From NCBI GenBank assembly GCA_012729835.1, contig JAAYCK010000072.1, positions 1 to 62,643 of the forward strand: a stretch of DNA of 62,643 nt. Direction: 5' to 3'. Numbering within the stretch: position 1 is the stretch's first letter; every line of letters starts with the position of its first letter. Both the position numbers and the translations under genes were made by a program. This document shows, piece by piece, positions 32,640 to 54,004 of this stretch. The notes under the pieces were generated by a model. The model ran no database searches and was not told the origin of the DNA. It was given only the letters and a program-made list of their open reading frames with translations. Source of the DNA: Syntrophomonadaceae bacterium. Lineage in GTDB: Bacteria; Bacillota; Syntrophomonadia; Syntrophomonadales; Syntrophomonadaceae.

Positions 32640-33089
32640 TTAGCCGTGCCTCAATGACCAATCATAAGGTATCGATCGGTCAAAAGGATCTAAACGCTCG
32701 ATTTCCTTCGGATCATGAGGAATCGAAGAACAATTGGCAACTATGGCCATCTCGCTGCCTATACCTTTAAACCCATTCCAAACCAGCGGTGGTATAGTAA
32801 CCAAGCAATAGTTGTCAGGCCCCAGTACTATTTCTTGGATCTCGCCTCTGGTAGGACTCTTTTCCCGATCATCATACAATACGAATTTTATATGTCCATG
32901 GGGCACCGCATAGTTCAATATCATTCTCTTGTGTATATGCCAACCCTTTATTACCCCCGGATAGACGCAGGAAAAATATATCTCGCCAAATTGCTGAAAA
33001 TTTTCATCATCACAACGCAGCATATGCATTATCTTCCCTCTTTCGTCGAGGATCTGTTTTAAAGGTTTGATTATTACCCCGTCGATCAA
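32640..33089 (-). CDS. RmlC-like cupin, sugar 3,5-epimerase family
   Basis: This protein of 149 residues is shorter than RmlC (about 180) but shows the same cupin core: GVIKGWHIHKRM with His51 at the place of the RmlC catalytic histidine and His53 close by, HGHIKFVLYD, and IPPLVWNGFKGIG. Members of this short group act on CDP- or dTDP-4-keto-6-deoxy sugars as epimerases or isomerases. It overlaps the end of rfbG by four bases (start TTG, GGAGG about ten bases upstream), so CDP-4-keto-6-deoxyglucose is its likely substrate. Confidence 0.75.
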   Translation of the reverse strand: MIDGVIIKPLKQILDERGKIMHMLRCDDENFQQFGEIYFSCVYPGVIKGWHIHKRMILNYAVPHGHIKFVLYDDREKSPTRGEIQEIVLGPDNYCLVTIPPLVWNGFKGIGSEMAIVANCSSIPHDPKEIERLDPFDRSIPYDWSLRHG

Positions 33090-34174
33090 TGTCTGGCAAC
33101 CTCCTTATCTTGTTGCGTTTTCCAATATTCATCGATATGTTGTCTGCTCAAATCCAGGATATTTTTCCCATCCTGATATCCTTTGTACCATTCTACCGTT
33201 TTATAGACCGTCCGCTCGAAGTCCCACCCAGGGTTCCACCCCAGAACATAATTGGCCTTGTCACTATTTAAGTGCAGTAAGCCGGCTTCATGCGATGCAT
33301 TGGCCTCTTTGTTTTCGGTAATGATGCCTTCTCCCCAATACTGCACTATTTTATCGGCCAGGCAGCGAACATTTCGCACCGATTCAGCGGTAGGCCCGAA
33401 ATTCCAAGACCCTGAGAAGGATTTAGGATCTTCGTATAACCGAGCTGCCAGCATCAGGTAGCCGAAAAGCGGCTCGAGAACATGCTGCCAGGGACGAGTG
33501 GCTCGCGGATTTCTTAATACTATCGGCTCCCGATCCATCAATGCTTTCATGCTGTCGGGCACTATACGATCCTGGGCCCAATCTCCCCCACCGATGACAT
33601 TCCCGGCTCTTACGCTTGCCGCACCGAACCCCACCCGATCATTTAGATACGCACTCATATATGAAGAAAAGACCAGTTCTGCCGCAGCCTTGGAAGCGCT
33701 GTAGGGATCGTGTCCACCTAATTCATCATTCTCACGGTATCCCCATATCCATTCCTTGTTTTTATAACATTTGTCGGAAGTAATGTAGATCAAGGCTTTC
33801 ACTTCCGGACAGTTCCTGATCGCTTCCAAAACATTCACTGAACCTGATATATTGGTGTCGAAGGTCAGTTTGGGTTCCTCATAAGAATACCTGACCAGTG
33901 GCTGGGCTGCCAGGTGGAATACGATCTGCGGCTTGAAGTCACCGACAGCATTTTTCAATTGATCATAGTCACGAATATCACCATTTATATGGTTTATGAG
34001 TTTATCAAGTCCTAAAAGAATGAAGTGATCGTTTTCTCTTTCCGGTGGTAAGGCAAACCCCCGTACTTCAGCTCCCATCTGCGTTAGCCACAAACTAAGC
34101 CATGAGCCCTTAAATCCTGTATCACCGGTAATGAATACCCTTTTCCCTCTGAACACATCTTCAAACATCAGCAT
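33086..34174 (-). CDS. rfbG: CDP-glucose 4,6-dehydratase
   Basis: This protein has 362 residues from the chosen start. It converts CDP-glucose to CDP-4-keto-6-deoxyglucose. It shows the RfbG hallmarks GDTGFKGSWLSLWL near the N-terminus, YSASK as the catalytic Tyr/Lys pair, and AGNVIGGGDWAQDRIVPD. The ATG at 34174 (or the one two codons later at 34168) is preferred over a frame start at 34213, because AGGGG lies just upstream and the overlap with rfbF disappears. It lies directly after rfbF, the usual order, and is coupled to the cupin gene downstream. Confidence 0.93.
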   Translation of the reverse strand: MLMFEDVFRGKRVFITGDTGFKGSWLSLWLTQMGAEVRGFALPPERENDHFILLGLDKLINHINGDIRDYDQLKNAVGDFKPQIVFHLAAQPLVRYSYEEPKLTFDTNISGSVNVLEAIRNCPEVKALIYITSDKCYKNKEWIWGYRENDELGGHDPYSASKAAAELVFSSYMSAYLNDRVGFGAASVRAGNVIGGGDWAQDRIVPDSMKALMDREPIVLRNPRATRPWQHVLEPLFGYLMLAARLYEDPKSFSGSWNFGPTAESVRNVRCLADKIVQYWGEGIITENKEANASHEAGLLHLNSDKANYVLGWNPGWDFERTVYKTVEWYKGYQDGKNILDLSRQHIDEYWKTQQDKEVARH

Positions 34175-34181
34175 GTAACCC

Positions 34182-34973
34182 CTAGTTTTTATCCCATACC
34201 TTCCAGAAGGCATTATTGGAATTCCACAGTTTATTTAAATACTCCATATCGCGATATGTATCCATACACTGCCATTGTCCACTATGTTCAAATACCATCA
34301 ATTCTCCCTCTGAAGCCAGCTTTTCCAGCGGACCGAATTCAAAATCACAATCTTCTGCTTCAGTCACATAGTCCAGTATCTTTCGATTAAAAATGAAGAA
34401 ACCTCCATTGATAAGTCCGGTAGATGTCTGTGGTTTTTCTGCGAACAATACCGCCTGGCCATTCTCAACCACCAGTTCACCAAAGAGCGAGGGTGGTCTT
34501 ACCCCGGTTACCGTCCCTATCTTACCATGCGACAAATGAAACTTCATAAGTTCATCAATATTAACGTCGCAAACTCCGTCACCATAAGTGAGCATGAAAA
34601 CATCGCTGTCGATATATTTAGCAGCTCTTTTCAATCGGCCGCCCTTAAGGGTATTGAGACCAGTATCGGCAAGAGTAACTTTCCAGTCATGTTCGATACC
34701 GCTGTCATGGATATGTATAGATTTATTCCTGCTCAAATCAATGGTGAAATCATTATTCAGAACTTCGTAGTCGTAAAAATACTTTTTGATCATTTCACCT
34801 TTGTATCCCAGGCATAAGACAAATTCATTGTAACCATAATGCGAGTATATTTTCATTATGTGCCATAAGATCGGTTTATCTCCTATGTTGACCATGGGTT
34901 TAGGCCGATAATCAGTTTCCTCTTTAAGCCTGGTCCCCATACCCCCACTAAAAATAACAACTTTGGGCTTCAT
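34182..34973 (-). CDS. rfbF: Glucose-1-phosphate cytidylyltransferase
   Basis: This protein of 263 residues is typical of RfbF, which makes CDP-glucose from CTP and glucose 1-phosphate, the entry step to CDP-dideoxy and CDP-amino sugars. Visible family marks are IFSGGMGTRLKEETDYRPKP at the nucleotide site, KPILWHIMKIYSHYG, TYGDGVCDVN and NGGFFIFNR. It starts two bases after the DegT aminotransferase gene and is followed by rfbG, so the three form one pathway unit. Confidence 0.94.
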   Translation of the reverse strand: MKPKVVIFSGGMGTRLKEETDYRPKPMVNIGDKPILWHIMKIYSHYGYNEFVLCLGYKGEMIKKYFYDYEVLNNDFTIDLSRNKSIHIHDSGIEHDWKVTLADTGLNTLKGGRLKRAAKYIDSDVFMLTYGDGVCDVNIDELMKFHLSHGKIGTVTGVRPPSLFGELVVENGQAVLFAEKPQTSTGLINGGFFIFNRKILDYVTEAEDCDFEFGPLEKLASEGELMVFEHSGQWQCMDTYRDMEYLNKLWNSNNAFWKVWDKN

Positions 34974-34975
34974 AT

Positions 34976-36076
34976 TTATCCCCTTCCATTAAAAAACTCC
35001 TGTATTCTTACAATAACCTCATCCACATCATTGTCGGTCATTCGACAGTGCAACGGAATCGTTAATATCTCGTCATACGCTTTTTCGGTTGCTGGCAGGC
35101 TATACCCGCTATTATAGTAAGGATGGAGATGATTGGGAATGTAATTGAGACCAGTTTCTATTTCATGGTCGCGTAGGAAACTCATCAATCCATTTCGTAG
35201 TCCATCTTTTACTAGGATAACAAATACGTGAGGGGCGACCTCATTGTAATTAGTTCTTAATAGCCCTATCCCAGGTATGTTTTGAAATGCTTGTACATAT
35301 TTCCTGCATATTTCTCTGCGCCTATCGACAAAGCTATTCAATTTCTTTAATTGAGCAAGGCCAATCGCTGCATTAATATTACTCATATGATACCTAAAGC
35401 CCTGCTCACTGACCTCATATTGCCAGCGCTCCCCACCCGGCTTCCGTTCTATACCCAGGGTCCTTTTTACCCTCAGAACCTCAGCATACTCAGTATCCTG
35501 GCATATGACGGCACCGCCTTCACCGCAGCTTATATTCTTAATAGAATCAAAACTAAAACAACTTATATCGCCAAAGCCTCCGACTTTTTTTCCCTGGTAT
35601 TCCGATCCCAGAGCGTGCGCAGCATCTTCAATTATTCTAATACCATGCTCTGCCTTTAGAGCAAGCAATTTATCCATATCACAGGGATTCCCCGCATAAT
35701 GTACAGGCATTATCGCTCTGGTCCTGGATGTAATCCTTTTTTTTACATCATCTATATCTATCAATAAGGTATCGGGGTATACGTCGCAGGAAACTGGTTT
35801 TGCTCCAGTAGCACTTACGGCTTGAAAGGATGCGACAAATGTCAAAGAGGGTACTATAACTTCGTCTCCCGGTCCAATGCCTAGTGCATCCATCGCCAGA
35901 TGCAGAGCATTTGTGCCATTATTAACCGCGACAGCATTGGCTACCCCCAGATATTGCTTAAGAGCCTCTTCAAACTGTTCCACCTTGTAGGCATGTCCAA
36001 AATAGCCGTATTCAAATGCTTCTTTTACCTCTTGAAGCTCTTCTTCTCCAAGACATCCCTGGGAAACTTTGATCAT
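34976..36076 (-). CDS. DegT/DnrJ/EryC1-family sugar aminotransferase next to the CDP-glucose genes
   Basis: This PLP enzyme of 366 residues has the internal-aldimine lysine Lys180 (FSFDSIKNISCGEGG) and the cofactor aspartate Asp151 (IEDAAHALG). RfbH (CDP-4-keto-6-deoxyglucose 3-dehydrase), the usual neighbour of rfbF-rfbG, has histidine in place of this lysine and is about 437 residues long; neither fits, so this gene should transfer an amino group. The likely substrate is CDP-4-keto-6-deoxy-hexose, giving a CDP-4-amino-4,6-dideoxy sugar (inference). The start ATG lies 27 bases after the methyltransferase gene. Confidence 0.87.
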   Translation of the reverse strand: MIKVSQGCLGEEELQEVKEAFEYGYFGHAYKVEQFEEALKQYLGVANAVAVNNGTNALHLAMDALGIGPGDEVIVPSLTFVASFQAVSATGAKPVSCDVYPDTLLIDIDDVKKRITSRTRAIMPVHYAGNPCDMDKLLALKAEHGIRIIEDAAHALGSEYQGKKVGGFGDISCFSFDSIKNISCGEGGAVICQDTEYAEVLRVKRTLGIERKPGGERWQYEVSEQGFRYHMSNINAAIGLAQLKKLNSFVDRRREICRKYVQAFQNIPGIGLLRTNYNEVAPHVFVILVKDGLRNGLMSFLRDHEIETGLNYIPNHLHPYYNSGYSLPATEKAYDEILTIPLHCRMTDNDVDEVIVRIQEFFNGRG

Positions 36077-36915: not shown

Positions 36916-38673
36916 TCAATTTTCTAGTTTTAAAAATCTTCTTACCGTAACTTCATTTATCGGCTCGAAATAAATGTCTCTTATTGACCGACCTAACTCT
37001 TTGTAATTGCTCACAGTTTCATTATCACGTTTGGAATAATGAACCAGGGCTTCTTTCAAATCGTCAGCTGTATAACACATTCGCCATATGTCTTGAGTTA
37101 TCGCTTCCGGGATATATTTGTAAGTAATACCAAAGGCATTTGCTATTACAATAACGGGAGTTCCCTTTGCAATCGTCTCTAAACAAACACTAGAACTTGA
37201 TGAAATAACGATATCAGTTTTTGCAACCAAAACATCAAATGTCTCGGATGCAAACTGGAACACCCCCGGCCAAGTGACCCCAAAAGCCTGTTTGGTTTTT
37301 TCGATACTATTCGTAGGATGAGTTTTAATATGAAATATAAAATTTTCCGGCAATTCAGATGTGATCACATCAAGCATTTTCAGTATCCCGATTGCCTCAT
37401 CCATGAAGTATGGCAGAGCAACCAGCACTCGAAAAACACCAGGGTCATATGTTGATTCATATACATTCCAAAGATGCTTGAAACGCAGAGCCGGGGCAAC
37501 AGTTACTTCCAGCGACGGACAAAATGTCTTTACTACATCCCTGAATCCATTTCCCATTACTGCAACTTCTTTTGGTATAACGCTATTTCTCTTTTCTTGT
37601 TCGGTTGGGTAAACACTCAAATAATGATCCGGATGAGGAAGCAGTTGAAAGCCGACCAGCGGGGTATCCGGATACCATTTTCTGAATCCAGCATTAAAAC
37701 CATGGTCTATCACCTGGTTTTCAAACCAGTTTACGATCAATGCGAAACGTACATTTTCCTTATTCAGTCTCATGACAAATCGGTATTTCAAAAGAGCTTC
37801 AAATGAGGCTTGAGAAACTGAATCTAAATGGTTCTGATCTTTCAGCAGGTCATCAATTTCCATTCCCAAAAAATCCGGTGGGTTTTTAATGAATTTTTTC
37901 GTTCTAAAAACATGGGTAAAAGCATAAAAATAGTCTGACGGTTTCAGATAGTCCTCTCTAACAAGAAAATGTTCGTTCGACATCCTCATATTCTTAAACA
38001 TGGACTGGTAATCATCTATTTGGTAATAAGTTGGAGCAAAATATATCCGGTTACATTCAGTTTCTGTTAGGTACTCCCTCAAATGGGGGTAATACCTGTC
38101 GGTAAATTTCTGATTAACGAAGCTGTTCTCAATAACAAAATTATCCAGCAATATTACCGGTTCGTTGGTATCGTGTTCGTATGTACTGTACTTCTTTGAG
38201 GCTCTGGCACAAATATTCTGTCGAATCGATGTAAAAACAAAGTATAGTACAGAAACTAAAGAATTCCGTTTCATTTGTGTTTTTATTCTATTGACCAAAC
38301 CGTTTAAGGTATCTGTCTTATATTCAACGGAACATGAATAGCTATTTACCCGTAACATTCTTAATATGGCCTTTTTTAAGGGTTGGGAATCAACTACAAT
38401 ACGGTCGATTTTGACTCCCTCTTTAATCAAGTGCTTCACCAAATACAACTTGCAGCAATTGGCGTAAAGGTTGCTTGCCTGACTGTTTCTGCTCCCGATA
38501 TTACCTGTCCACCAGTCAATATCCTTTTCATGTTTACTTCCCAGAAACTGAGTATACTCTACAAATGCCCCCCGTATATTATGAGCCACATCATCTAATA
38601 AACGGCTTATACCAGCGTTCATTACTGTCAGGTCTAATACTTCAAAGCTTTGACTTAAATAATCAGTGCTCAT
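36916..38673 (-). CDS. Putative surface-carbohydrate transferase, perhaps the LIC13510-like (TIGR04326) family
   Basis: This protein of 585 residues is not clearly identifiable from memory. Its overall build (a conserved IDWWTGNIGSRN segment near 52-63, FENQ at 317-320, KTHPT at 450-454, and SSSSSVCLETIAKGTPVIV at 491-509) resembles large surface-carbohydrate proteins of Leptospira-type O-antigen loci. The C-terminal third looks like the sugar-nucleotide half of a GT-B enzyme of the KpsS/CDP-glycerol-transferase kind. No membrane helix or signal peptide is evident. It may use one of the CMP- or CDP-sugars made nearby (inference). The epimerase gene ends 13 bases upstream. Confidence 0.5.
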   Translation of the reverse strand: MSTDYLSQSFEVLDLTVMNAGISRLLDDVAHNIRGAFVEYTQFLGSKHEKDIDWWTGNIGSRNSQASNLYANCCKLYLVKHLIKEGVKIDRIVVDSQPLKKAILRMLRVNSYSCSVEYKTDTLNGLVNRIKTQMKRNSLVSVLYFVFTSIRQNICARASKKYSTYEHDTNEPVILLDNFVIENSFVNQKFTDRYYPHLREYLTETECNRIYFAPTYYQIDDYQSMFKNMRMSNEHFLVREDYLKPSDYFYAFTHVFRTKKFIKNPPDFLGMEIDDLLKDQNHLDSVSQASFEALLKYRFVMRLNKENVRFALIVNWFENQVIDHGFNAGFRKWYPDTPLVGFQLLPHPDHYLSVYPTEQEKRNSVIPKEVAVMGNGFRDVVKTFCPSLEVTVAPALRFKHLWNVYESTYDPGVFRVLVALPYFMDEAIGILKMLDVITSELPENFIFHIKTHPTNSIEKTKQAFGVTWPGVFQFASETFDVLVAKTDIVISSSSSVCLETIAKGTPVIVIANAFGITYKYIPEAITQDIWRMCYTADDLKEALVHYSKRDNETVSNYKELGRSIRDIYFEPINEVTVRRFLKLEN

Positions 38674-38686
38674 TGCTTTACTCCAT

Positions 38687-39565
38687 TTAACCCGGCATTT
38701 GGTTTTTTCTATCCATTTCTATAAGGCATTCCAATAAGCCCTGTCCCATATCGACATACAGGTGGTTTACCAGCTTAGAACCTATTTTCGGTGTATAAGA
38801 ATACGGAGTATAGGCATAATGATCTTCATTCTTCTGGTTGCCGAAGTTTATCTGCAGATCTTTACCCAGGATTTCTTTGATCATAAATAACATATCTTTA
38901 AAACGCATAGTATGATGTCCACTGAGAATAATATGTTGATTGCTGTATTCATCGCCAAGAATATCCACGCTAAGGCGGGATGCATCGCGTACGTGTATGT
39001 AATCCCTCATTTCTTCTCCGGTACCGGAGCAATTAATGTCGGAAGTCTCCAGAGCCTGTTTGATGTACCTGTAAATACTGTTACTTGCATCTGCCCGCGG
39101 TCCATACAATGTTCCATAGCGAAGGATAGTATAATCCAAACCATATCGTCTCTGAAACTCTTCGATATAGAGCTCGGAAGCCTGTTTACTGCAGCGGTAA
39201 AATCCTCCCTTTTGGCTGTACACATAAATGGTGCTGGCATAAACATATCGTTGTATGTTCGCCGCCAGACATGCTTCCATAATGTTCAGGTTGCCCTTTA
39301 TATTTAGTTCAACAGTTTTAAGCGGCTTGGTGGTTGCATCATCCAAATCGGCAATACCGGCAAAGTTAAATACGTAATTACAGCCTGCCACCGCTTTCCT
39401 GACCTGTTCTGAATCAAGAATATCGCCTACTACCATCTGTTGGTCATTCATCAGATAAGGTGAAGCAACAAGATCATAGATGATTACATCATATCCCCGG
39501 TTACTTAGTTCGTCAGCTACATGACTTCCCAAAAAACCTGACCCGCCAAATACAATTGCCTTCAC
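38687..39565 (-). CDS. NAD-dependent epimerase/dehydratase (nucleotide-sugar SDR)
   Basis: This extended SDR of 292 residues has GGSGFLGSH (7-15), Ser111 in YASTIYVYS and Tyr123/Lys127 in YRCSK. It resembles UDP-glucose 4-epimerase relatives but is shorter and lacks a recognisable substrate signature. The start is GTG at 39565 with GGAG nine bases upstream. It follows the HAD phosphatase gene after 33 bases. Confidence 0.84.
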   Translation of the reverse strand: MKAIVFGGSGFLGSHVADELSNRGYDVIIYDLVASPYLMNDQQMVVGDILDSEQVRKAVAGCNYVFNFAGIADLDDATTKPLKTVELNIKGNLNIMEACLAANIQRYVYASTIYVYSQKGGFYRCSKQASELYIEEFQRRYGLDYTILRYGTLYGPRADASNSIYRYIKQALETSDINCSGTGEEMRDYIHVRDASRLSVDILGDEYSNQHIILSGHHTMRFKDMLFMIKEILGKDLQINFGNQKNEDHYAYTPYSYTPKIGSKLVNHLYVDMGQGLLECLIEMDRKNQMPG

Positions 39566-39598: not shown

Positions 39599-40240
39599 TT
39601 ACGATATGGTATCAAATACCTCTGCAAATTCCCTTAGATCACCAACTCTATATTCGCTCTGGTTCAACTCATTGCCATCCTGGTGTATCCGTGCAACAAA
39701 ACAGACCCCGGTGTTTTGAGCAGCAAGCCAATCACTTTCAGCATCGCCCACGAAAATAACTCTATCAGGCCTTAACTCATATCTGTTCAATAAATCACCG
39801 ATGATCTCTGTCTTGCTTCCTGGGGTACCGTGAATTTCCGTGAAATAATCCTTCAATCGCCTTTTCTCAACTATATACTCAAGTTCTTTTTGGGGAGTCC
39901 CCGAAGCAATGAACAACGGATACGCCATATGGTTCTTTTCAATAAACTCGAAGGCACCGGGCACATAGGGGGCTTTAAGAACTTCATCCATAACTATTGA
40001 GGTAAAGTCCTCGCCAAGCTTAGTCTCCTGGTCGTCTGATAAAGGCAAACCAAGGATCTTGTCATAAATATGACGGAATTTCACATAACGTGATATCCCC
40101 ATGTTACTGATATGATAGTCCACAATCTCTGAAACCTTGTCTGGATAGTCTTTCCCAAATAGTATCGCAAAGGCTCTGGTCTTTATATCAGCTGATTCCA
40201 ATATAACTCCATCAAAATCGAATATAATAGCTTCAATCAC
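39599..40240 (-). CDS. HAD-superfamily phosphatase (PGP/beta-PGM type)
   Basis: With the GTG start at 40240 this protein has 213 residues. The nucleophile motif is FDFDGVI (Asp8, Asp10), with motif II in IASGTP, the motif III lysine of GSKTEII, and motif IV in FVGDAESDW. A helical cap occupies about 18-90. The GTG overlaps the stop of the preceding gene by four bases (GTGA) and has GGGGGT seven bases upstream; a start at 40264 would only add a poor N-terminus. It likely dephosphorylates a sugar or sugar-acid phosphate of this pathway (inference). Confidence 0.85.
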   Translation of the reverse strand: MIEAIIFDFDGVILESADIKTRAFAILFGKDYPDKVSEIVDYHISNMGISRYVKFRHIYDKILGLPLSDDQETKLGEDFTSIVMDEVLKAPYVPGAFEFIEKNHMAYPLFIASGTPQKELEYIVEKRRLKDYFTEIHGTPGSKTEIIGDLLNRYELRPDRVIFVGDAESDWLAAQNTGVCFVARIHQDGNELNQSEYRVGDLREFAEVFDTIS

Positions 40241-40902
40241 TCGAATACCCCCAGAATGGTACATGGAGAACTGTCTATTTCATCAAATCGCAAAGGGACT
40301 ACCCATACCTGCTCCAGCTTTTTGGGATAATATGACAAAAACATATCTTCCACCAGGACTATTGGATCCCCAACTCCATCCGGGTCTAAAAACGCCTTAT
40401 GAGCGAGCCTGCCGACTTCCCTGTTTCGAAATGATGAAACTGAAATAAAATCAAATCCGACTGCCCTAACATTAGGTCGTTCTTTTCTGAGCCAAAGACC
40501 TATTTCAGGATCCAATCCAGGGTTCTGGAGGCAATATATCTCTTGTCCACGGTATTTCGCCCAACCGGAATTTAGTATTAAAAAATCGGTATTGTTCTCA
40601 ACACTTACCGATAAGTCTTTCATTGCAATTATTTGACCAGGTTGGGCACTTAGATTAATGATTTGGGGATTATTGAAAAACCAAAAACTTGCTTCGTATT
40701 GTTCTACTCTCTTGCCATTCTGAAAAAAATGTGCCGGACAATCCACATGGGTACCCCAATGATTCTCCATCCCTACACGAAAGACATTGCACGAATCCCC
40801 GCTAGATATAGCTTTGACCGGCAGTATTTCTAGGACTTCCTCCATCGATCCGTAAACCGGGATTCTTTTTTTTAATGCATAAGATAGATATTCAATACGC
40901 AT
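40237..40902 (-). CDS. Cyclase-family hydrolase (kynurenine-formamidase fold)
   Basis: This protein of 221 residues has the metal-binding motif NHWGTHVDCPAHFF (His48, His52, Asp54, His58) of the KynB/cyclase superfamily, which hydrolyses or lactonises amides and esters. No tryptophan-degradation genes are present, so formylkynurenine is an unlikely substrate; a deformylation, lactone opening or ring closure of a sugar acid is possible (inference). It shares one base with the stop of the 2-hydroxyacid dehydrogenase gene (TAATG) and is coupled to the HAD gene by GTGA, so all three should act on one intermediate. Confidence 0.82.
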   Translation of the reverse strand: MRIEYLSYALKKRIPVYGSMEEVLEILPVKAISSGDSCNVFRVGMENHWGTHVDCPAHFFQNGKRVEQYEASFWFFNNPQIINLSAQPGQIIAMKDLSVSVENNTDFLILNSGWAKYRGQEIYCLQNPGLDPEIGLWLRKERPNVRAVGFDFISVSSFRNREVGRLAHKAFLDPDGVGDPIVLVEDMFLSYYPKKLEQVWVVPLRFDEIDSSPCTILGVFE

Positions 40903-41846
40903 TATTCATTGTACTCCACAACAAATTGGCAAGGCTCTCCCTTTAAGACCTTGATACAATTATCAATCGCCAATAATTCGGTTTGACGCCTGGAACCAAT
41001 GGTAAAACTGCTGGCATGAGGCGTTAATAGAGTATTATCCAACTCGATGAGGGGACCGTAATAAGGTTCTTCTGCAAAAACATCACAGCAATAATAACTC
41101 TGGGGATGCTGCTTAAGGTATGTGTAAGCGGCATCTTCATTCACGATGCCACCGCGTGCGGTATTTACAATGGTTACCGGCCTTTCCATCTGTTCAAATT
41201 CCATATGTGATAACCAGTTGAGGGTATCGTCTTTAAGAGGAATATGAAAAGATATTATATCCGCCTGATCCAGTATTTCTTTTTTGCTTACAAATTCCAA
41301 GCCCATCGCATGCGCAGTAGCCAGATCGGGTGAAATGTCATGCAATAATACCCTGCAATTGAACGGCTTAAGTAGATTTGCTAATCTCTTGCCTATTCTT
41401 CCAAATCCAATGATTCCTACTGTTGCATCCATCAACCTTAATGAAAACGACCTTTTCCATATGTTATTTTTTATCATACGGTCATAGTTCAGCAAGCGTC
41501 TGCTACCTGCCATGATCATGCCGAAGGCCATCTCCGCAGTTGAATCTGTAGGGCCAAATGGAGTCCAGGTCGTTACAATACCATGCTCTCTAAAGAAATC
41601 AATATCAATATTATTTAACCCCACACCCAGGCGTGAAATCACCTTTAAAGAATTGGTTTTCTCAACAATGGTCTTATTTACTGTTTTGGTCCCGATGAGA
41701 AGGCCATCATAACAGCCATTGGAAAGCTCCATTTCAATTTCTTGTGCTGTAGGGTCATATCCCCAAATATTCGAAACAAATTCGATTCCTTCAACACTTC
41801 TGATATCCGTTAGAAAGGGATAAACAGCAACTAACACCTTTTTCAT
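40902..41846 (-). CDS. D-2-hydroxyacid dehydrogenase (PGDH/lactate-dehydrogenase-like)
   Basis: This NAD(P)-dependent enzyme of 314 residues interconverts 2-keto and D-2-hydroxy acids. It shows the cofactor loop GFGRIG (147-152) and the catalytic residues Arg231 (NTARGG), Glu260 (DVFAEEP) and His277 (LTPHAS). Length fits the short hydroxyacid dehydrogenase group without an ACT domain, so serine synthesis is unlikely. The first gene of a coupled trio with the cyclase and HAD genes, it may reduce or oxidise a keto-acid related to the nearby pyruvate-aldolase product (inference). Confidence 0.88.
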   Translation of the reverse strand: MKKVLVAVYPFLTDIRSVEGIEFVSNIWGYDPTAQEIEMELSNGCYDGLLIGTKTVNKTIVEKTNSLKVISRLGVGLNNIDIDFFREHGIVTTWTPFGPTDSTAEMAFGMIMAGSRRLLNYDRMIKNNIWKRSFSLRLMDATVGIIGFGRIGKRLANLLKPFNCRVLLHDISPDLATAHAMGLEFVSKKEILDQADIISFHIPLKDDTLNWLSHMEFEQMERPVTIVNTARGGIVNEDAAYTYLKQHPQSYYCCDVFAEEPYYGPLIELDNTLLTPHASSFTIGSRRQTELLAIDNCIKVLKGEPCQFVVEYNE

Positions 41847-41864
41847 CGATTTCAGACCTTTCTA

Positions 41865-42476
41865 TCAGTTCGTATCACTAACTGCTCTAGTGCCAATAAT
41901 TTTGCCGGGCACCCCGGCTACGATAGAAAGCGGCGGAATATCGTTAGTAACTACACACCCCGCACCTATTACACAACCATAGCCGATGTTTACATCCGGT
42001 AAGATGACTGCATTGGCAGCAATCCATACATCGTTGCCAATGATTATTTCCCCGCCCCGATGACCTTGATCTCGAATTGGTATATCAAGTCTGGAAAATA
42101 CATGATCGCTTGACCTTATAGTAACATTTCTCGCAAGTAGAACATTATCGCCAATAATAATGGATCCATTTTCAGAAGCATCAATCATACAATTTTTATT
42201 GGCGCTAAACCTATTACCAATTTGTATTTTTCCACCGTTTATAGCATACATATCAATGTTGGCGCCCAACACTGCATTATTTCCGACTGAAATATTTCCG
42301 GGTTCTCCGCAAAAGAAACCAGTACGTACAATCAGTTTATCGCCACATTTTTTAAAATGTTTTCTCCAAAAAAGGTAACGAACATAGGCTCCAATATTAC
42401 CCGGAATATTCCTGATAAAAATTACCTGATACCATTCTGCAAATTCATTTAATACAATTTTTATTAACTTATTCAT
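41865..42476 (-). CDS. Hexapeptide O-acyltransferase (maltose/galactoside acetyltransferase-like)
   Basis: This protein of 203 residues has a left-handed beta-helix from about 60 to 190 (VGNNAVLGANID, IGDNVLLARNVTIRSSDH, IGNDVWIAANAVILPDVNIG). His127 or so in SSDHVF is the expected catalytic histidine. Typical donors are acetyl-CoA. It lies between the KdsB-like gene and the 2-hydroxyacid dehydrogenase gene. It is one of two such enzymes around the KdsB-like gene, so both may modify the same ulosonic acid (inference). Confidence 0.85.
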   Translation of the reverse strand: MNKLIKIVLNEFAEWYQVIFIRNIPGNIGAYVRYLFWRKHFKKCGDKLIVRTGFFCGEPGNISVGNNAVLGANIDMYAINGGKIQIGNRFSANKNCMIDASENGSIIIGDNVLLARNVTIRSSDHVFSRLDIPIRDQGHRGGEIIIGNDVWIAANAVILPDVNIGYGCVIGAGCVVTNDIPPLSIVAGVPGKIIGTRAVSDTN

Positions 42477-42509
42477 AGTTTTCTTTGTATCCCCAATCTA
42501 AAAAATCAA

Positions 42510-43283
42510 TTATTTACTACTATATTGAGTTAACAATTGATCATATTTCATTAGCATCTCTACTTTCTTAAGGTCTTCCTCTGTGTCAACACTATATGTA
42601 TCATATTGGGTCTCAATCATTTTAACTCTGTACCCATTTTCTAATAGACGCAGCATATCAACTGATTCAACTATCTCTAATGGGCTCTGCGGCATATCAT
42701 TGAATTTGATTAAAAACTCTCTTCGAAAGGGAATCAAACAAACCTGCTTATTCATAGGCACTTCGGTCGCTCCCTTTTTCCAGGACGGAATGGGTTCCCT
42801 TGAAAAATAGAGGGCATTGCCGCTCAAGTCCACTACCACTTTCACCTCATTGGGGTCATCGTGTTCTTCTCGTGTTTTAATGGGAGCCATCAGGTTTACG
42901 ACTTGAACACTATCATCATCCAGCATCGGCTGCACTGCAGCATCAATCATCTCAGGGAACAGCATCGGCTCATCTCCCTGGATCATCATTAGAATGTCTA
43001 TTTTTTTCCCGGTATTCTTCTCAATGGTCAGCATTGCTTCGGCGCATCGATCACTGGCTCTTTCATGAGCATCGCTGGTCATTATGGCTTTCCCGCCAAT
43101 GCTCTCTATATAAGCAGCTATTTCCTCGTCACAGGTGGCAACATATACATCATCCAAACATTTGCTAAGTTTGCTTCGGAAATAAACATGTCCGATCATG
43201 GGAATTTCCAGAATCCTGGCCATCGGTTTTCCCGGGAACCTTGAAGAAGCCATCCTGGCGGGTATAATTCCTACAATATGCAT
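42510..43283 (-). CDS. KdsB-like CMP-3-deoxy-ulosonate cytidylyltransferase
   Basis: This protein of 257 residues activates a 3-deoxy-2-keto sugar acid with CTP. It shows IIPARMASSRFPGKPM (6-21), IQGDEPMLFPEMID (101-114) and a HERASDR loop (73-79) where classical KdsB has a HxSGTDR loop that contacts Kdo. That change, and the lack of any lipid A, KdsA or WaaA gene in the window, suggests a substrate other than lipopolysaccharide Kdo. Its ATG is six bases after the upstream acyltransferase gene. I leave the symbol empty because the substrate is uncertain. Confidence 0.85.
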   Translation of the reverse strand: MHIVGIIPARMASSRFPGKPMARILEIPMIGHVYFRSKLSKCLDDVYVATCDEEIAAYIESIGGKAIMTSDAHERASDRCAEAMLTIEKNTGKKIDILMMIQGDEPMLFPEMIDAAVQPMLDDDSVQVVNLMAPIKTREEHDDPNEVKVVVDLSGNALYFSREPIPSWKKGATEVPMNKQVCLIPFRREFLIKFNDMPQSPLEIVESVDMLRLLENGYRVKMIETQYDTYSVDTEEDLKKVEMLMKYDQLLTQYSSK

Positions 43284-43288
43284 ATATA

Positions 43289-43951
43289 CTACTCTCCTTT
43301 GTCCAGGACCTTGATGATCCTGGCATAATTTCCACCGGCGACAACGTTGGGCGGGATGTCATTTACCACAACGCTTCCCGCGGCAATAACCGAATTATCT
43401 CCTATCCTTACTCCCTTTAGGATAATGCATCTGCTGCCTATCCATACATTCTTGCCGATGACTACATCGGCGTCATTTTCAAAGGCAGGATTCATTGTCC
43501 GATTCTCAGGGGGCCATAATGCATGAAAATCCGAATCTATTATCATTGAGTTAGGAGCAATCATAGTCCCTTCACCAACAGTGATTTGTTTGGATCTGGC
43601 TACTATAGAAGTTCCATTCAGATCGACATTATTTTCGATTACTATTTTAGCATCCGGTGTACAAGTCTTGAGCTTAGTAGGGGCATATATGGAACTAGCT
43701 GTACATCGCTGAGATGATGATACTATACTTACATTCTGGCCAAGGCTGATCTGACTTTTGGGAAAACGTGATAAATGGATAGTCCCGAAACAACGAACGT
43801 TATTTGAAATATTGATACCACAGATGCATGCTTTCAAATACAACATAGTTGTCCCGATAAACCCTGAGACATAGTGCTGTAGTCTTATGTAAGTATAGCT
43901 CAGCATGTCACGAAACGACAAACTGCTTAATTTTCTAAAAAATTCCTTCAT
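43289..43951 (-). CDS. Hexapeptide acyltransferase (WbbJ/CatB-like)
   Basis: This protein of 220 residues has a beta-helix from about 45 to 205, with MIIDSDFHALWPP carrying the expected catalytic histidine, and VIGKNVWIGSRCIILKGVRIG / SVIAAGSVV as the coils near the C-terminus. It starts six bases after the aldolase gene and ends five bases before the KdsB-like gene. The two hexapeptide genes around KdsB suggest regiospecific O- or N-acylations of the product. Confidence 0.85.
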   Translation of the reverse strand: MKEFFRKLSSLSFRDMLSYTYIRLQHYVSGFIGTTMLYLKACICGINISNNVRCFGTIHLSRFPKSQISLGQNVSIVSSSQRCTASSIYAPTKLKTCTPDAKIVIENNVDLNGTSIVARSKQITVGEGTMIAPNSMIIDSDFHALWPPENRTMNPAFENDADVVIGKNVWIGSRCIILKGVRIGDNSVIAAGSVVVNDIPPNVVAGGNYARIIKVLDKGE

Positions 43952-43957
43952 AGCGTT

Positions 43958-44713
43958 TTACCTTGATTTTGCTATTGTCTCACGGCATTTGCCTCCCAGG
44001 TACAAGGTGTCTAAACCGACGGCAATAAATGTATATCCCTTATCCTTATATGAATTTGTCAATTCGGGATCAGGTTGAACTACGTGAAAGCCCATCGCTT
44101 TTTTTAACCGCTTAGAAACCTTTTCATATTGCTGTAGGGCATCAAGCACCTCTGGCCTATTAAATTCACCAGGATAGCCCAGAGACCCTGACAGGTCATA
44201 CGGACCGATAATCGAGCCATCTACCCCCGGAGTAGACAGAATCTCCTCTAATCGTTCAATCGCCTTTATGTGTTCGATTTGCACTATGGCGACACTGTTA
44301 TCAGCCAGCCAGCTCTTATATTCTTCAAAACCAAATCCATATTGTTGAGCCCTCGCCAGACCTACGCCCCTGAAACCCTTTGGCGGATACTGCACTGCCC
44401 CTACTGCCCGTTCAGCGTCTTGACGACTATTTACCATTGGAACTATGACCCCATGAGACCCAGCATCCATTACCCTCTTGATCAAATAGGGATCATTGTC
44501 TCCTACTCTAACTAAAGGAACGCTGCCATTCATCTCTATGGTCCGAATCATTTCCTGAGCCTGATTGAGTTCAATAACGCTGTGTTCCATATCGATAGTC
44601 AACCAATCGAACCCAGATTTAGCCATTATTTCAGCTATAGATGTATGGCCAAGGGTTATCCATGAACCCAGCGAAAACTCATCTCGTAGTAATCTATCTT
44701 TTAAATCGATCAT
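43958..44713 (-). CDS. HpcH/HpaI-family class II pyruvate aldolase
   Basis: This TIM-barrel aldolase of 251 residues condenses pyruvate with an aldehyde to a 4-hydroxy-2-keto acid, or the reverse. The metal and catalytic residues are in place: His44 in DMEHS, Arg69 in VRVGDND, Glu147 in VQIEH and Asp173 in GPYDLSG. The usual substrate pocket T after QVE is His148 here. In a catabolic setting such enzymes split 2-keto-3-deoxy sugar acids; next to a KdsB-like CMP transferase, forming a 3-deoxy-ulosonate from pyruvate and a sugar aldehyde is attractive (inference). The ATG overlaps the flippase stop by four bases (ATGA). Confidence 0.88.
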   Translation of the reverse strand: MIDLKDRLLRDEFSLGSWITLGHTSIAEIMAKSGFDWLTIDMEHSVIELNQAQEMIRTIEMNGSVPLVRVGDNDPYLIKRVMDAGSHGVIVPMVNSRQDAERAVGAVQYPPKGFRGVGLARAQQYGFGFEEYKSWLADNSVAIVQIEHIKAIERLEEILSTPGVDGSIIGPYDLSGSLGYPGEFNRPEVLDALQQYEKVSKRLKKAMGFHVVQPDPELTNSYKDKGYTFIAVGLDTLYLGGKCRETIAKSR

Positions 44714-46275
44714 TTTACTCTTCTCCTATTATTTATAGAATGTTTAATAACAGCAATGTCTTCATGCTTTATCCCAAAAATACGAGGGAACTTATATGCC
44801 ACCAGTATGATTATTAAAGTATATAGAAACCCGGTTAAGAGAAAATTAGCTATTACAAAATCGTTCATCCAGTTCATCTGGTTGACTAATGCAGTAGTGA
44901 TCCATGCAATTGTCAATATGCAACCTACACTTATGATTTGATGTCCCAGGTAACGCCAGTAGTTCAAGCCGAGGAATTTAGAATTATAGTAAAGTTGGGC
45001 ATTGACCCAAAAGAACTGCAACCCGACCATTTTGACCGCCAAACCAACGGCCCCTGTATCTAATCCAAATCTATCTGCCGGAGCAATCAGGAAATAGGTA
45101 ATGGGTATCCCGATGGTCATGAAATAGATCCCAATGTTTCTGAATAGCTTTGTTTGTCCATTAGCAAAAAAAACTGAACCGCTTAATTGCCCATATGTCT
45201 GATGGATCGGATAAAATGCCATTATCATTACTGCTAAAACAGCTTCTTTATACTGACCACCTCCAAAAAGATATACCACATTGGCTGATTGAACAGCAAT
45301 AAAGCATGAAAAATAAGCGGCAACAGAATATAACATGGGTATATATCTACGGAAATAATAAGCCATCTGGCTTATGTCCTTATTGTCATAAGCGATAGAG
45401 AACTCTCTCATGAGTAAGGGAGTCATGGCACTGGTAAAAAGAAAACAAACGGCGCCAATTTGATAAGACAGACTGTAAAAGCCTTGTTGCTCACTTCCAG
45501 CAAATTGCTGCAAAAACCATCGATCAAGGATCCCTATAACCACGCCTGCAAGAGCGTAGAGAAGCAGAGGCGCACTGTATTCGTAAAACTCATGAATGTA
45601 TTTCTTAGCATGTTCTCTGGTGATCGTATATTGTCCTTTAAGGGCAAAATCACTATTCTTGATTACTGCTGCAAAGGCCAAACCTAAGAAACCAATAATA
45701 ATAAAGTTGTAATAAAAGAAATTAGCCAAATCTAGCTTATGACACAGATAAAGCACTACAATCATAGCAAGGCCTAATATCTTTTGGATAATTCGAGCAA
45801 TCTCTGAAGGAACAGTTAAACCATAAGCATCAGTAATTTTGTTCAGGGTTTGACTAAACCAGGTAAATATTCCCCATCCTGCACCTAGATAAATGTAAAA
45901 AATAGTCTGTCCTGGCCAAATACTATTGATTTGACCTGTTTGATGAACTATTAGTACAAATAATAGGGTCATTATAGATGCTAAGATTGAAAAATAGAGA
46001 TAAAAAACTACCAACCCATACTCTCTTGGTCTCTGTGAGAGCTTAGTGTAGAATGCAGTTGAGGTCCCCATGTCAATGAAACCGATGATCTGATTAAAGA
46101 AATTAGTTATAAAATTAAAATCGCCATAAGCTCTGGGGCCTAGCCCACGGGGAATTATGGCCTGAGTTATCAGATTAACAAACAGGCCCACTAAATTGGT
46201 GGATAATTTGAAGGCATATCTTCTGCCCAATGAGCTATTCCCGCTCTCATCCCGCAATGACTTTAGAAAACTCAT
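44710..46275 (-). CDS. Wzx-type oligosaccharide flippase (MOP superfamily)
   Basis: This protein has 521 residues from the chosen ATG and about 12-14 membrane helices over its length, with a PST/MATE-like organisation; it probably flips undecaprenyl-linked repeat units to the outer face. A TTG at 46308 would add 11 residues but has no ribosome-binding site, while the ATG at 46275 has GGGA eight bases upstream. It still overlaps the end of the preceding transferase gene by 29 bases. There is one flippase gene of this type in the window, so it likely serves the repeat unit that the nearby Wzy polymerises. Confidence 0.83.
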   Translation of the reverse strand: MSFLKSLRDESGNSSLGRRYAFKLSTNLVGLFVNLITQAIIPRGLGPRAYGDFNFITNFFNQIIGFIDMGTSTAFYTKLSQRPREYGLVVFYLYFSILASIMTLLFVLIVHQTGQINSIWPGQTIFYIYLGAGWGIFTWFSQTLNKITDAYGLTVPSEIARIIQKILGLAMIVVLYLCHKLDLANFFYYNFIIIGFLGLAFAAVIKNSDFALKGQYTITREHAKKYIHEFYEYSAPLLLYALAGVVIGILDRWFLQQFAGSEQQGFYSLSYQIGAVCFLFTSAMTPLLMREFSIAYDNKDISQMAYYFRRYIPMLYSVAAYFSCFIAVQSANVVYLFGGGQYKEAVLAVMIMAFYPIHQTYGQLSGSVFFANGQTKLFRNIGIYFMTIGIPITYFLIAPADRFGLDTGAVGLAVKMVGLQFFWVNAQLYYNSKFLGLNYWRYLGHQIISVGCILTIAWITTALVNQMNWMNDFVIANFLLTGFLYTLIIILVAYKFPRIFGIKHEDIAVIKHSINNRRRVK

Positions 46276-48013
46276 AAATCCATTCCCGAAGTGGTCCAAC
46301 CCGTGCAAATCGTTCGCAAAATCTCGACCGTACCTTCTGCAGTTCAGGGTTATTCCACCATGATTCTATATCAAAATATATTTGATTTACAGTATGTGCG
46401 GCAGATTCTGGAGTCTTATAAAGAATTCCAACTCTAATAAGTTCATCAAAAAACGGCATAGCCTCTGGTCTAATATAATGAGTCTCGAAATCCCAAAAAA
46501 GAATGGTTGGCTTATTACTGGCTAAAACCTCAAGAAACGTCGTAGCCGTATTATCACAGATTACCAGCCGGCATTGTTCCAAACGCTTTCTGAAGGGGAT
46601 CTCCCAACTATCCATAATAACCTCCAGTTTAGCATCACTCCACCTATCTGCGTACTCCCAACCGAAGTCGTTAATATAGCCTCTGATATGCAATGCATCG
46701 CGGATATTTTTATCGAGCCCGGCTGCAAATCTTATCTGCCATTCTATATAGGTAGATACCTCGTGTGGGAGAATTGGTGTAAAGCGCAAGAAATAGCGCG
46801 GCCAAATATTTGATACAAAAAGTATGTCTTTCAATTGATTATCCGCTTGTAAGTCCTTGATATCATTCAATTTGAGAGCGGCCATCGGTATAATCTTGTT
46901 GTTAAATCCTTCTCTATCCCATCCCCAGGTAAAGTATTTATCTACAATGGAAAGCTCATAGTCTTCTTGATGTAAATTGGCATTTATACCATACATACCA
47001 CCATGCTGCCCACCCAATAATGCTACCCCTTTTTCTCTGGCATCAGCTGCCCATATCTTAAACGTTTCGTCAAAGTACCAGGAAGTACCACTAAAAATGG
47101 CTTTGACATTCGAATATTTGCGGAATTTCTTTTTAGATGCCAAGTATAATGTTTGATATCCCTCTAAAAAACAAAACGGGATATCCTGGGGTATCAATTT
47201 GACCAGGATTCGTACAAATTCATCCTCGGTATCGATCTTCATATCGGATAATTCAGCACGCATCGTTAGGTTAGTGACCAGCTCATCCATTGGCAACTGT
47301 TCATCGAACCCCAGTGCAAGCTTTGATTTAAACCGTACTTTTAACCGAAATTCATCAGACTTTGAAAAATAAGAACTTTGCATGTACATACCATTGTTAG
47401 CTTTACCGTCCAACAATTTGTACCACAGCATCTTGATTGATTTACTTAAGCTATTATTAACCTGTGGTATTTGCCTTTTTTCTGGTGATGCAATGCCTCT
47501 TTCAGGTAAAATCTTACCTTCTAGTTTTAGCATCCGGCTTATGATCTGTAGATTGTAAGTATCATTAATGATACGAACCACAAAATCCTCAGTGTCTGAA
47601 GGGATTATATAATCTTTTTCGGACAGCAATATAGTGGTATATTGAGGATATATTTCGGTAATTGATTTCAATCTCAGAAATTTATCATAAACATTAGCTG
47701 CATAATGAAATAACCAAACACCGAGGACGATCCGCCAATATCTCTTGCTCCTATCGACCCCATGGATTATATTTAGCTTACTTCCGACAATTTCAAGAAT
47801 ATCTTCATAAACTTTATTTAAATACTGATTGCCTGCATTTATCTTATCCAAGCTGCTCCACGGGTTAGGCAAGAAAGAATACTCTAACGTTTCCCAAAAT
47901 GCCCGACGCGAAAACCGGTTGCACCACTCACCCATAAATAATAAAGGTTTTGAAGTATCCCAGAATTCCTCAAGTGCAGTAGTTGCTAAGAAAACTTCGT
48001 CTTTATTACTCAC
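46247..48013 (-). CDS. LIC12162-family (TIGR04331) putative surface-sugar transferase
   Basis: This protein of 588 residues begins FLATTALEEFWDTSKP with LFMGEWCNRFSR nearby, the hallmark I recall for the LIC12162 family found in Leptospira-type and other O-antigen loci. Further marks are GGQHGGMYG (334-342) and CDNTATTFLEVLASNKP (486-502), reminiscent of capsule and glycerophosphate transferases with a GT-B fold. No membrane helix is visible. The family's reaction is unknown; its place after the CMP-sugar module suggests transfer of a nonulosonate-like sugar (inference). The start is GTG; GGGGAG lies 14 bases upstream, further than usual, so the start is not certain. Confidence 0.68.
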   Translation of the reverse strand: MSNKDEVFLATTALEEFWDTSKPLLFMGEWCNRFSRRAFWETLEYSFLPNPWSSLDKINAGNQYLNKVYEDILEIVGSKLNIIHGVDRSKRYWRIVLGVWLFHYAANVYDKFLRLKSITEIYPQYTTILLSEKDYIIPSDTEDFVVRIINDTYNLQIISRMLKLEGKILPERGIASPEKRQIPQVNNSLSKSIKMLWYKLLDGKANNGMYMQSSYFSKSDEFRLKVRFKSKLALGFDEQLPMDELVTNLTMRAELSDMKIDTEDEFVRILVKLIPQDIPFCFLEGYQTLYLASKKKFRKYSNVKAIFSGTSWYFDETFKIWAADAREKGVALLGGQHGGMYGINANLHQEDYELSIVDKYFTWGWDREGFNNKIIPMAALKLNDIKDLQADNQLKDILFVSNIWPRYFLRFTPILPHEVSTYIEWQIRFAAGLDKNIRDALHIRGYINDFGWEYADRWSDAKLEVIMDSWEIPFRKRLEQCRLVICDNTATTFLEVLASNKPTILFWDFETHYIRPEAMPFFDELIRVGILYKTPESAAHTVNQIYFDIESWWNNPELQKVRSRFCERFARVGPLREWIYEFSKVIAG

Positions 48014-49719: not shown

Positions 49720-50703
49720 CTATTTTTTAGTCTTAAATGAGTATGGGGTCGGGGCTGAAGAAGCCTCGCTCTTGGCCTCATTACTCCATTTCTTGATCTG
49801 AGCCTCTATATCCAGGCCGACATTCTTGCTCCAGGTGTCCAACAATAATCGTGTTAATGGGCCCATAGTTCCTTGACCAATTTTAACAGCATTCAAGGTA
49901 GTGACCGGCAGTAAGCAAAATGGTGTGCCGGTCATAAAAGCCTCATCTGCCATCATAACGTCATAAACTTCAATGTTTTTCTCTACCCATTCCAAACCTA
50001 ACTCGTCACACAACTCAAAAATATATGCCCGACTGATACCGCGCAGAATATTACGCGGTTCAGGAGTTATTACCACCCCGTCTTTAACGATAAAGAAATT
50101 ATCCCCGGTCCCCTCTGCAACAAATCCGTCGGGATCGAGCAGTAATGCCCAGTTATTTTCCCCTGCATAATTGGACACCTCGATATTTGCCATCAGGTAA
50201 TGGATGCGGCTTCTATTCTTGACTTTAGGATCCAGTAGTGACGCCGGAATAGTACGCTGGGACGGGATTACCGCATTGATACCGCTGTCAAATAGTACCC
50301 CCATCCCCGATACAGTCCACCGCAGCGGAAAATCGGCAATGATCACGTTAGCTCCCTGCTGAGCCCCTACTACACCCTGATAGATACCTAATAAGCCCCG
50401 GGTAACGTCGATCATGATACGATGTTCATCATCTGCGGCAAAAAAAGGTTCGTTGGCTTCTATAGTTTCATAAACATGGGATTCCATCTCATCCATACTC
50501 ATCTCCACCGGGATCCTTAAATACTTGATACCCGAATACAACCTCTCAAGATGTTCCCTTAATCTGAACTGTTTTTTGTTGAAAGAACGGGTCATCTCGA
50601 AAACCATATCACCGAACATTAGCGCCGAATCGTATATGGAGATCCGAGCATTCTCCTCCGGAACAAAAACCCCGTTCATGTAAACTACTCTTCCACTTCT
50701 CAC
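49720..50703 (-). CDS. Class IV (fold-type IV) PLP aminotransferase
   Basis: This protein of 327 residues belongs to the branched-chain/D-amino-acid aminotransferase superfamily. The PLP lysine is Lys162 (VKNRSRIHYL), placed the same number of residues before an alanine-rich helix as in D-amino acid transaminase, and Glu197 in VAEGTGDN is the ring-nitrogen contact. The C-terminal extension (310-327) is basic and unusual. Amino-acid, not sugar, aminotransferases are known in this fold, so a keto-acid or amino-acid building block for the glycan is likely (inference). The start is GTG with AAGGAG eight bases upstream. It is followed 11 bases later by the first SDR. Confidence 0.84.
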   Translation of the reverse strand: MRSGRVVYMNGVFVPEENARISIYDSALMFGDMVFEMTRSFNKKQFRLREHLERLYSGIKYLRIPVEMSMDEMESHVYETIEANEPFFAADDEHRIMIDVTRGLLGIYQGVVGAQQGANVIIADFPLRWTVSGMGVLFDSGINAVIPSQRTIPASLLDPKVKNRSRIHYLMANIEVSNYAGENNWALLLDPDGFVAEGTGDNFFIVKDGVVITPEPRNILRGISRAYIFELCDELGLEWVEKNIEVYDVMMADEAFMTGTPFCLLPVTTLNAVKIGQGTMGPLTRLLLDTWSKNVGLDIEAQIKKWSNEAKSEASSAPTPYSFKTKK

Positions 50704-50726: not shown

Positions 50727-51407
50727 TTATATGATTAGGTCCTTAAATGTCTGAAAAAGTATTTCCATTAATTTGATATCATCCCGGTTATCGATCTCAA
50801 AGGTCTGCCAGAATTCCATTAAATAGACCCCGATTTTCCCGCCCATCCGGTTTCCCTGAGCCAGGATTTCGGGTTTAAACAAATAAAAAGAACCGTTTTC
50901 AACATACTGAGATTTACGGTCCTGGCGCCTTCCACGATTAAGATAGTCATAGTTGAAGCTTTTTAATTGCCCCTCTTGATCTAGATCCCAAATCAGGAAA
51001 TCATCTAACATGGCACCCGAAAAGGCTGAATCCCACTTCTCCTCCCGAAATTGTCTTATAGCCTTGCTTAAATCATCAGGTTTACGAAGGGGAGACGTAG
51101 CCTGGAGCATGATAACCAGCTCGACATCATTGCCTATTACTGACAAGGCATGCTCTATGGCCGATTCGGAGGAAGCCGTATCTCCTGCGATATCAGCCGG
51201 CCTTACGATCGTTGAGGCACCAAATTCTTTGGCGATATCCAATATCTCATTAGAATCTGAAGTGAGATAGACTTCATCGATTTCCGGGGTGTGTTTGGCT
51301 TGAAGTATTGACCAGGCAATAAGGGGTTTCCCACAAAAATCCATTATATTCTTCCCTGGGATGCCTTTAGAACCGCCCCGTGCCGGAATAATTGCAATCG
51401 TCTTCAT
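50727..51407 (-). CDS. NeuA-like CMP-nonulosonate (acylneuraminate) cytidylyltransferase
   Basis: This protein of 226 residues activates a sialic-acid-like 3-deoxy-ulosonic acid with CTP. It shows IIPARGGSKGIPGKN (6-20) and MLQATSPLR near residue 103, the standard signature of NeuA, PseF and LegF. The length fits the bacterial single-domain type. GAGGAT lies seven bases before the ATG, and only three bases separate it from the TIM-barrel gene. Together with the NeuB-like synthase it defines a nonulosonate-type pathway; which acid is made cannot be told. Confidence 0.9.
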   Translation of the reverse strand: MKTIAIIPARGGSKGIPGKNIMDFCGKPLIAWSILQAKHTPEIDEVYLTSDSNEILDIAKEFGASTIVRPADIAGDTASSESAIEHALSVIGNDVELVIMLQATSPLRKPDDLSKAIRQFREEKWDSAFSGAMLDDFLIWDLDQEGQLKSFNYDYLNRGRRQDRKSQYVENGSFYLFKPEILAQGNRMGGKIGVYLMEFWQTFEIDNRDDIKLMEILFQTFKDLII

Positions 51408-51410
51408 AAA

Positions 51411-52259: not shown

Positions 52260-52272
52260 AACAACTCTCCAA

Positions 52273-52890: not shown

Positions 52891-52914
52891 TTTAAATCCC
52901 CCGTTATAGAATAA

Positions 52915-53994: not shown

Positions 53995-54004
53995 TTTTTA
54001 TTTC

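Follow-up and report, generated by a model that had tools for sequence, protein, structure and literature searches.

A KdsB-like CMP transferase and a class II aldolase form a widespread cassette that may supply CMP-activated sugar acids

Linkage and distribution of the cassette

We describe a gene cassette from a Syntrophomonadaceae bacterium (assembly GCA_012729835.1) in which a class II pyruvate-type aldolase of the HpcH/HpaI family (43958..44713, minus strand) is paired with a KdsB-like cytidine monophosphate (CMP) transferase (42510..43283, minus strand). The window analysed is one whole contig (C54, JAAYCK010000072.1, 62,643 nt) of a 3.13 Mb host genome, which is 99% complete and belongs to the same family as Syntrophomonas wolfei subsp. 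methylbutyratica. The cassette is real and widely spread, not a local accident, and as far as checked it is new as a combination. With some reserve, we favour the reading that, with no phosphoenolpyruvate (PEP)-dependent synthase involved, it makes and CMP-activates an acidic 2-keto sugar destined for a surface polysaccharide. That sugar is probably not 3-deoxy-manno-octulosonate (Kdo), judging from the Kdo pocket of the transferase, which is altered throughout its clade. The broader proposition, that across bacteria and archaea a KdsB-derived transferase activates a non-Kdo ulosonic acid from a class II aldolase, with an oxidative supply module interchangeable in some lineages, appears to us evenly poised.

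The aldolase and the KdsB-like protein were used as separate queries against 398 genomes of the phylum. Both searches returned the same top three genomes, in each of which the two genes are adjacent or nearly so. The pairing was seen in every phylum genome that has this KdsB clade (3/3) and in no genome with another KdsB relative (0/40; Fisher p 8e-5; all Fisher p-values given here treat loci as independent, though some loci are related). A wider scan, in which each species was represented by one genome, yielded 253 relatives of the KdsB-like protein, and the loci of the best 80 of these 253 were analysed. They show 57-72% identity and come from about 20 phyla, including archaea and bacteria of the candidate phyla radiation (CPR); among the carriers are Methanoregula, Omnitrophota, CPR bacteria, Bacteroidota, a Phormidium isolate, SAR86 and a cultured Syntrophomonas. 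Matches in plasmid records were canonical KdsBs only (~40% identity), and viral contigs held only distant KdsBs (33-38% identity).

Loci with flanks of 6 kb or more in both directions were counted as complete. These 47 loci contained a D-2-hydroxyacid dehydrogenase in 41 cases, the aldolase in 40, a member of the SDR family in 37, an HAD phosphatase in 30 and a cyclase-fold hydrolase in 13. The aldolase gene usually lies upstream of the KdsB-like gene, and in 42/60 loci it is 0-64 nt away on the same strand. A first-pass annotation, made from the letters of the window alone, had proposed scanning genomes for an aldolase and a KdsB co-occurring without KdsA. The scan bears this out, with the pair in 40/47 complete loci and a true KdsA in only 4/20 of the cassette genomes tested.

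A KdsB-like enzyme with an altered sugar pocket

The KdsB-like protein (PF02348, 161.9 bits) has the KdsB/KpsU fold. Its AlphaFold 2 (AF2) model (predicted local distance difference test, pLDDT, 94.5) matches KpsU in complex with CMP-Kdo (1gqc) with a template modelling (TM) score of 0.88 and an E value of 3e-26. With KdsB and KpsU CMP-Kdo synthetases it shares this fold (TM 0.86-0.88 to KpsU), ~35-38% identity, the CTP-site motif (GIIPARM.SSRFPGKP) and the Mg aspartates, and the CTP-site motifs are invariant in the clade alignment. It differs from them in its sugar-pocket motifs, its linkage to an aldolase and its hosts, which mostly lack KdsA. On the sugar side, the canonical HxxGTDR is replaced by HERASDR, as the first-pass annotation had noticed, KHxGxYxY by KQVCxIPFRR, ESLEQLR by ESVDMLR and IPY by IPS. 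Across 82 clade sequences the first three changes are almost universal, and the nine canonical sequences of the phylum that were compared have none of them. Three altered motifs are ones that we take to line the Kdo pocket in the KdsB family; at a guess, the extra arginine of the HER motif binds another acid group. In a quick tree the canonical KdsBs cluster together (support 100, branch 1.61), separate from those of the cassette. The subfamily models PRK13368 and PRK05450.1-5 recognise the protein, whilst its scores fall below the cut-offs of the equivalog models TIGR00466 (151.9 vs 155.2 bits) and PRK05450.1-1 (181.8 vs 281 bits).

Profile searches of the whole host genome found no KdsA over cut-off and no LpxC. 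The lack of KdsA and lipid A genes that had been remarked on for the window thus extends to the genome for KdsA and LpxC, whilst KdsD was not searched genome-wide. Supply of Kdo by a KdsA elsewhere in the genome, which would have undone the original proposal, is therefore excluded in this host. The four PF00793 proteins, which were considered as KdsA candidates, are encoded next to aromatic amino-acid genes; they are DAHP synthases, with scores far short of the KdsA cut-off. Among the 20 cassette genomes tested, LpxC was found in 7/20. KdsA was found in 0/3 of the 99%-complete ones (the three Bacillota); many of the others are metagenome-assembled genomes (MAGs) of unknown completeness, in which a single absence carries little weight. 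Since the motif, KdsB equivalog and KdsA tests all fail, the cassette should not be filed as Kdo synthesis. Nor is a PEP-dependent synthase of another kind a constant partner, NeuB-type genes being present in a minority of loci.

No second canonical KdsB was recognised in the host genome, the other CTP_transf_3 proteins over cut-off being a PseF/NeuA-like protein (upstream of the cassette), an SpsF-like protein (contig C108) and GlmU (C113). Activation of a phosphonate by the KdsB-like enzyme was also considered and set aside, as none of the cassette neighbours read was recognised as a phosphonate gene, although no profile search was made. Two cassette loci contain, in addition, another KdsB paralogue whose loop reads DVRRASDR and which has its own tree branch (L114:12999-13739 and L132:18106-18849).

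The aldolase belongs to a clade of its own

The aldolase is a member of PF03328 (122.7 vs a gathering cut-off of 25 bits), and the metal-binding and catalytic residues of HpaI are conserved in it (W18, D41, H44, R69, E147, D173). By comparison with HpaI-family residues, E147 and D173 are assigned as metal ligands and H44 and R69 as catalytic (roles as in PMC8560999), so that the metal site is indeed complete, as first read. These ligands and the catalytic His and Arg are common to the HpaI, GarL and RhmA class II pyruvate aldolases, whereas the cassette aldolase scores below the equivalog cut-offs of all three (HpaI 196 vs 369, GarL 175 vs 407, RhmA 160 vs 441 bits), carries the signature RGVGLARAQxYG and QIEHI, and is located in surface-polysaccharide islands. 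In a tree, the 29 cassette aldolases sampled group together (support 99) to the exclusion of 27 further aldolases from the phylum. In vitro, small hydroxyaldehydes serve HpaI-family aldolases as acceptors for pyruvate (PMC7610986).

Gene order and a possible pathway

The cassette genes are all on the minus strand inside a long polysaccharide island. Families were assigned with Pfam and NCBIfam profiles, and these together with the open reading frames confirm the six-gene row at 40237-44713 that had been described earlier, with all six families as named. The six genes lie head to tail with intergenic gaps of -1 to 33 nt and hence look like one operon. Upstream of the row is a flippase-like membrane protein (44710..46308, minus strand), which was read from the sequence without a family search and is 68% identical in S. 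wolfei subsp. methylbutyratica. The row then runs from the aldolase through a hexapeptide acyltransferase (43289..43951, minus strand; PF00132), the KdsB-like gene, a second hexapeptide acyltransferase (41865..42476, minus strand; PF00132) and a phosphoglycerate-dehydrogenase-like D-2-hydroxyacid dehydrogenase (40902..41846, minus strand; PF02826/PF00389) to a kynurenine formamidase-like cyclase-fold metal hydrolase (40237..40902, minus strand; PF04199, 76.9 bits) with its HWGTHVDCPAHF motif intact. Both hexapeptide acyltransferases are present as annotated, but they are local additions and not part of the recurrent core, as hexapeptide genes occur in a minority of loci.

The run extends beyond 40237, with gaps of -28 to 33 nt, into a beta-PGM-like HAD phosphatase (39599..40264, minus strand; PF13419), whose true start is probably inside the overlap with the cyclase gene, an extended SDR resembling nucleotide-sugar epimerases (38687..39565, minus strand; PF01370, 142 bits) and a 585-aa TIGR04326-like surface-carbohydrate protein (36916..38673, minus strand), followed by a methyltransferase. 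No sequence match of the 585-aa protein to solved structures was found. Its AF2 model (pLDDT 90.5) and structural matches place a GT-B fold in residues 171-585, with an HP motif at H452-P453 and with R397 and H452 invariant. Kdo transferases and some CMP-sialic-acid transferases are reported to carry an HP motif (PMC10148158). A GT-B-type fold and an HP motif are likewise common to the beta-Kdo transferases GT99/GT107/GT140, although these families are not among the structural matches listed for the 585-aa protein, which are generic GT-B. With its modelled fold and HP motif, the protein is a candidate user of the CMP-sugar.

In the pathway that we propose, the class II aldolase would add pyruvate, or possibly hydroxypyruvate, to an aldehyde to give a 4-hydroxy-2-oxo (ulosonic) acid. 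The HAD phosphatase in loci like that of the window (variant A, below), or an SIS isomerase with an Inositol_P-family phosphatase in some loci of a second type (variant B), may prepare or dephosphorylate this acid, much as KdsD and KdsC serve KdsA. The KdsB-like enzyme, whose fold and active-site motifs are those described above, would then couple the anomeric hydroxyl of the acid to CMP. Lastly, the 2-hydroxyacid dehydrogenase and the SDR would modify the acid or its CMP-activated form, and the GT-B protein with the HP motif would transfer the sugar.

This scheme shares its logic with the KdsD-KdsA-KdsC-KdsB pathway, namely a C-C bond formed on pyruvate carbons, a phosphatase and CMP activation, as well as an SIS isomerase in variant B. 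It differs in having a pyruvate-type aldolase in place of the PEP-dependent KdsA, an extra dehydrogenase and SDR, and a product that is probably not Kdo. Like the NeuB/NeuA-type nonulosonate pathways it would deliver a CMP-activated 2-keto sugar acid to surface glycans; unlike them the cassette has no NeuB synthase, and its CMP transferase is of the KdsB type, not the NeuA/PseF type. To our knowledge, the biosynthetic CMP-ulosonate pathways already described (for Kdo and for sialic, legionaminic and pseudaminic acids) all use PEP-dependent synthases. In the open-access literature searched, outside which most subscription journals fall, there was no description of the cassette, of HpcH combined with a cytidylyltransferase, or of heptulosaric or pentulosonic acid biosynthesis. 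If the proposal is true, CMP-ulosonates are available to organisms with neither lipopolysaccharide nor a PEP-dependent Kdo synthase. A widespread alternative, whether aldolase-based or oxidative, would bring one or more new acidic sugars into the surface glycans of archaea, CPR bacteria and Gram-positives, would put right many 'Kdo cytidylyltransferase' annotations in Kdo-less organisms and would provide a ready-made enzyme set for CMP-sugar production.

Locus variants and alternative explanations

Three types of locus were distinguished. Variant A, the type in the window, combines the aldolase and KdsB-like genes with the dehydrogenase, SDR, HAD and often the cyclase. Variant B has the aldolase, KdsB-like protein, a Gfo/Idh oxidoreductase, an SIS isomerase, the dehydrogenase and sometimes an Inositol_P-family or 3-dehydroquinate-synthase-like protein. 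SIS-containing loci replace HAD-containing ones, the two genes being rarely found together (Fisher p 0.004), and the Gfo gene was seen in SIS loci alone (9/9, p 8e-10). A 3-dehydroquinate-synthase-like protein beside a short SDR was seen in four SIS-variant cassettes (L089:5638-6723, L130:10338-11411, L146:4896-5999, L149:4171-5256), possibly marking a cyclitol or sedoheptulose-derived branch. The minority variant C has no aldolase in the locus and contains the KdsB-like gene, a divergent dehydrogenase subtype, usually the cyclase, and a fusion (~620 aa) of GT2 to a zinc alcohol/glucose-dehydrogenase domain (PF08240, PF16912).

Several observations weigh against an aldolase-based supply. HpaI-family aldolases are known chiefly as catabolic retro-aldolases. 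The simple pyruvate aldol route leaves the role of the near-constant 2-hydroxyacid dehydrogenase unexplained, which is a weak point; this enzyme could make hydroxypyruvate for the aldolase, or the ulosonate by aldonate oxidation as variant C suggests. Moreover, the GT2-dehydrogenase fusion was found in 0/61 aldolase loci and in 9/20 aldolase-less loci (p 6e-7; L091, L097, L098, L105, L106, L111, L142, L153 and L154). Of 14 genomes checked that have the KdsB clade but an aldolase-less locus, 11 show no such aldolase anywhere, most of the genomes checked being incomplete MAGs. The dehydrogenase is at least as regular a partner as the aldolase, and the KdsB clade also has a variant in which oxidative enzymes stand in for the aldolase; the aldolase is therefore one supply route and not the defining one. 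What stands of the original aldolase-KdsB proposal is a conserved pair of distinct clades with an altered sugar pocket, in hosts that mostly lack KdsA where tested; the hand-over of the aldolase product to the KdsB-like enzyme is a prediction.

The strongest rival is an oxidative route, in which the dehydrogenase oxidises C2 of an aldonate, after a sugar dehydrogenase and lactone opening by the cyclase, to a 2-ketoaldonate for the KdsB-like enzyme, the aldolase having another task such as supplying or trimming the precursor. It would account for the dehydrogenase as the most constant partner of the KdsB-like gene and for the joint presence of fusion, cyclase and dehydrogenase in aldolase-free loci, and 2-ketogluconate reductase is among the closest solved structures of the dehydrogenase. 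However, 40/47 complete loci retain a tightly linked, catalytically intact aldolase of its own clade, the dehydrogenase of aldolase-free loci is a divergent subtype, and oxidation of an aldonate at C2 with NAD is, as a matter of general knowledge, energetically unfavourable. We regard this route as unlikely.

A hydroxypyruvate variant of the aldolase route seems less probable still. Here the dehydrogenase and the HAD phosphatase would turn 3-phosphoglycerate into hydroxypyruvate, and with this donor the aldolase would form a 3-hydroxy rather than a 3-deoxy ulosonate. The dehydrogenase is nearest to phosphoglycerate and glyoxylate/hydroxypyruvate dehydrogenases (closest PDB entry 1wwk, a phosphoglycerate dehydrogenase), HAD is found in 30/47 complete loci, and 19/571 class II aldolases screened accept hydroxypyruvate (PMC7610986). 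Against this, the HAD gene is usually missing from SIS-variant loci, and aldolase-free loci that retain the dehydrogenase are left unexplained.

We see little prospect that the KdsB-like enzyme instead activates the product of an upstream NeuB-type PEP synthase, with the aldolase acting, as NanA does, in salvage or in the retro-aldol direction. It is true that the island contains, 6-10 kb upstream, a NeuB-like synthase together with a KdsC/GmhA fusion and a PseF-like transferase, and that NeuB homologues occur in some other cassette loci. Yet the NeuB gene has its own PseF/NeuA-like CMP transferase (50727-51407), and NeuB-type genes are found in 16 cassette loci (a minority, by cluster count) as against the aldolase in 85% of complete loci. 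Finally, it is very improbable that this is an ordinary KdsB to which salvage or a KdsA elsewhere supplies Kdo, for although the fold and the NCBIfam subfamily models call a 3-deoxy-manno-octulosonate cytidylyltransferase, the pocket motifs, the missed equivalog models and a host genome with neither KdsA nor LpxC all contradict it.

Neighbouring sugar routes

The genes upstream of the cassette form a separate ulosonate-type route in the same island (50727-54844). This comprises the short (279 aa) NeuB-like synthase of the PEP-dependent type (54005-54844), a KDN-9-phosphatase/KdsC-like HAD fused to a GmhA-like isomerase, a TIM-barrel sugar isomerase and the PseF/NeuA-like CMP transferase, after which comes a class IV aminotransferase (49720-50703). 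Related NeuB and aminotransferase genes adjoin the cassette in L107 and L113. Downstream of the cassette lies a CDP-glucose branch (33086-36076) with glucose-1-phosphate cytidylyltransferase, CDP-glucose 4,6-dehydratase and a DegT aminotransferase. A second glycosylation island, read from the sequence, is present on host contig C108 (L011, 11274-16043) and encodes an SpsF-like cytidylyltransferase-family protein, an aminotransferase, a GNAT acetyltransferase and a NeuB-like synthase.

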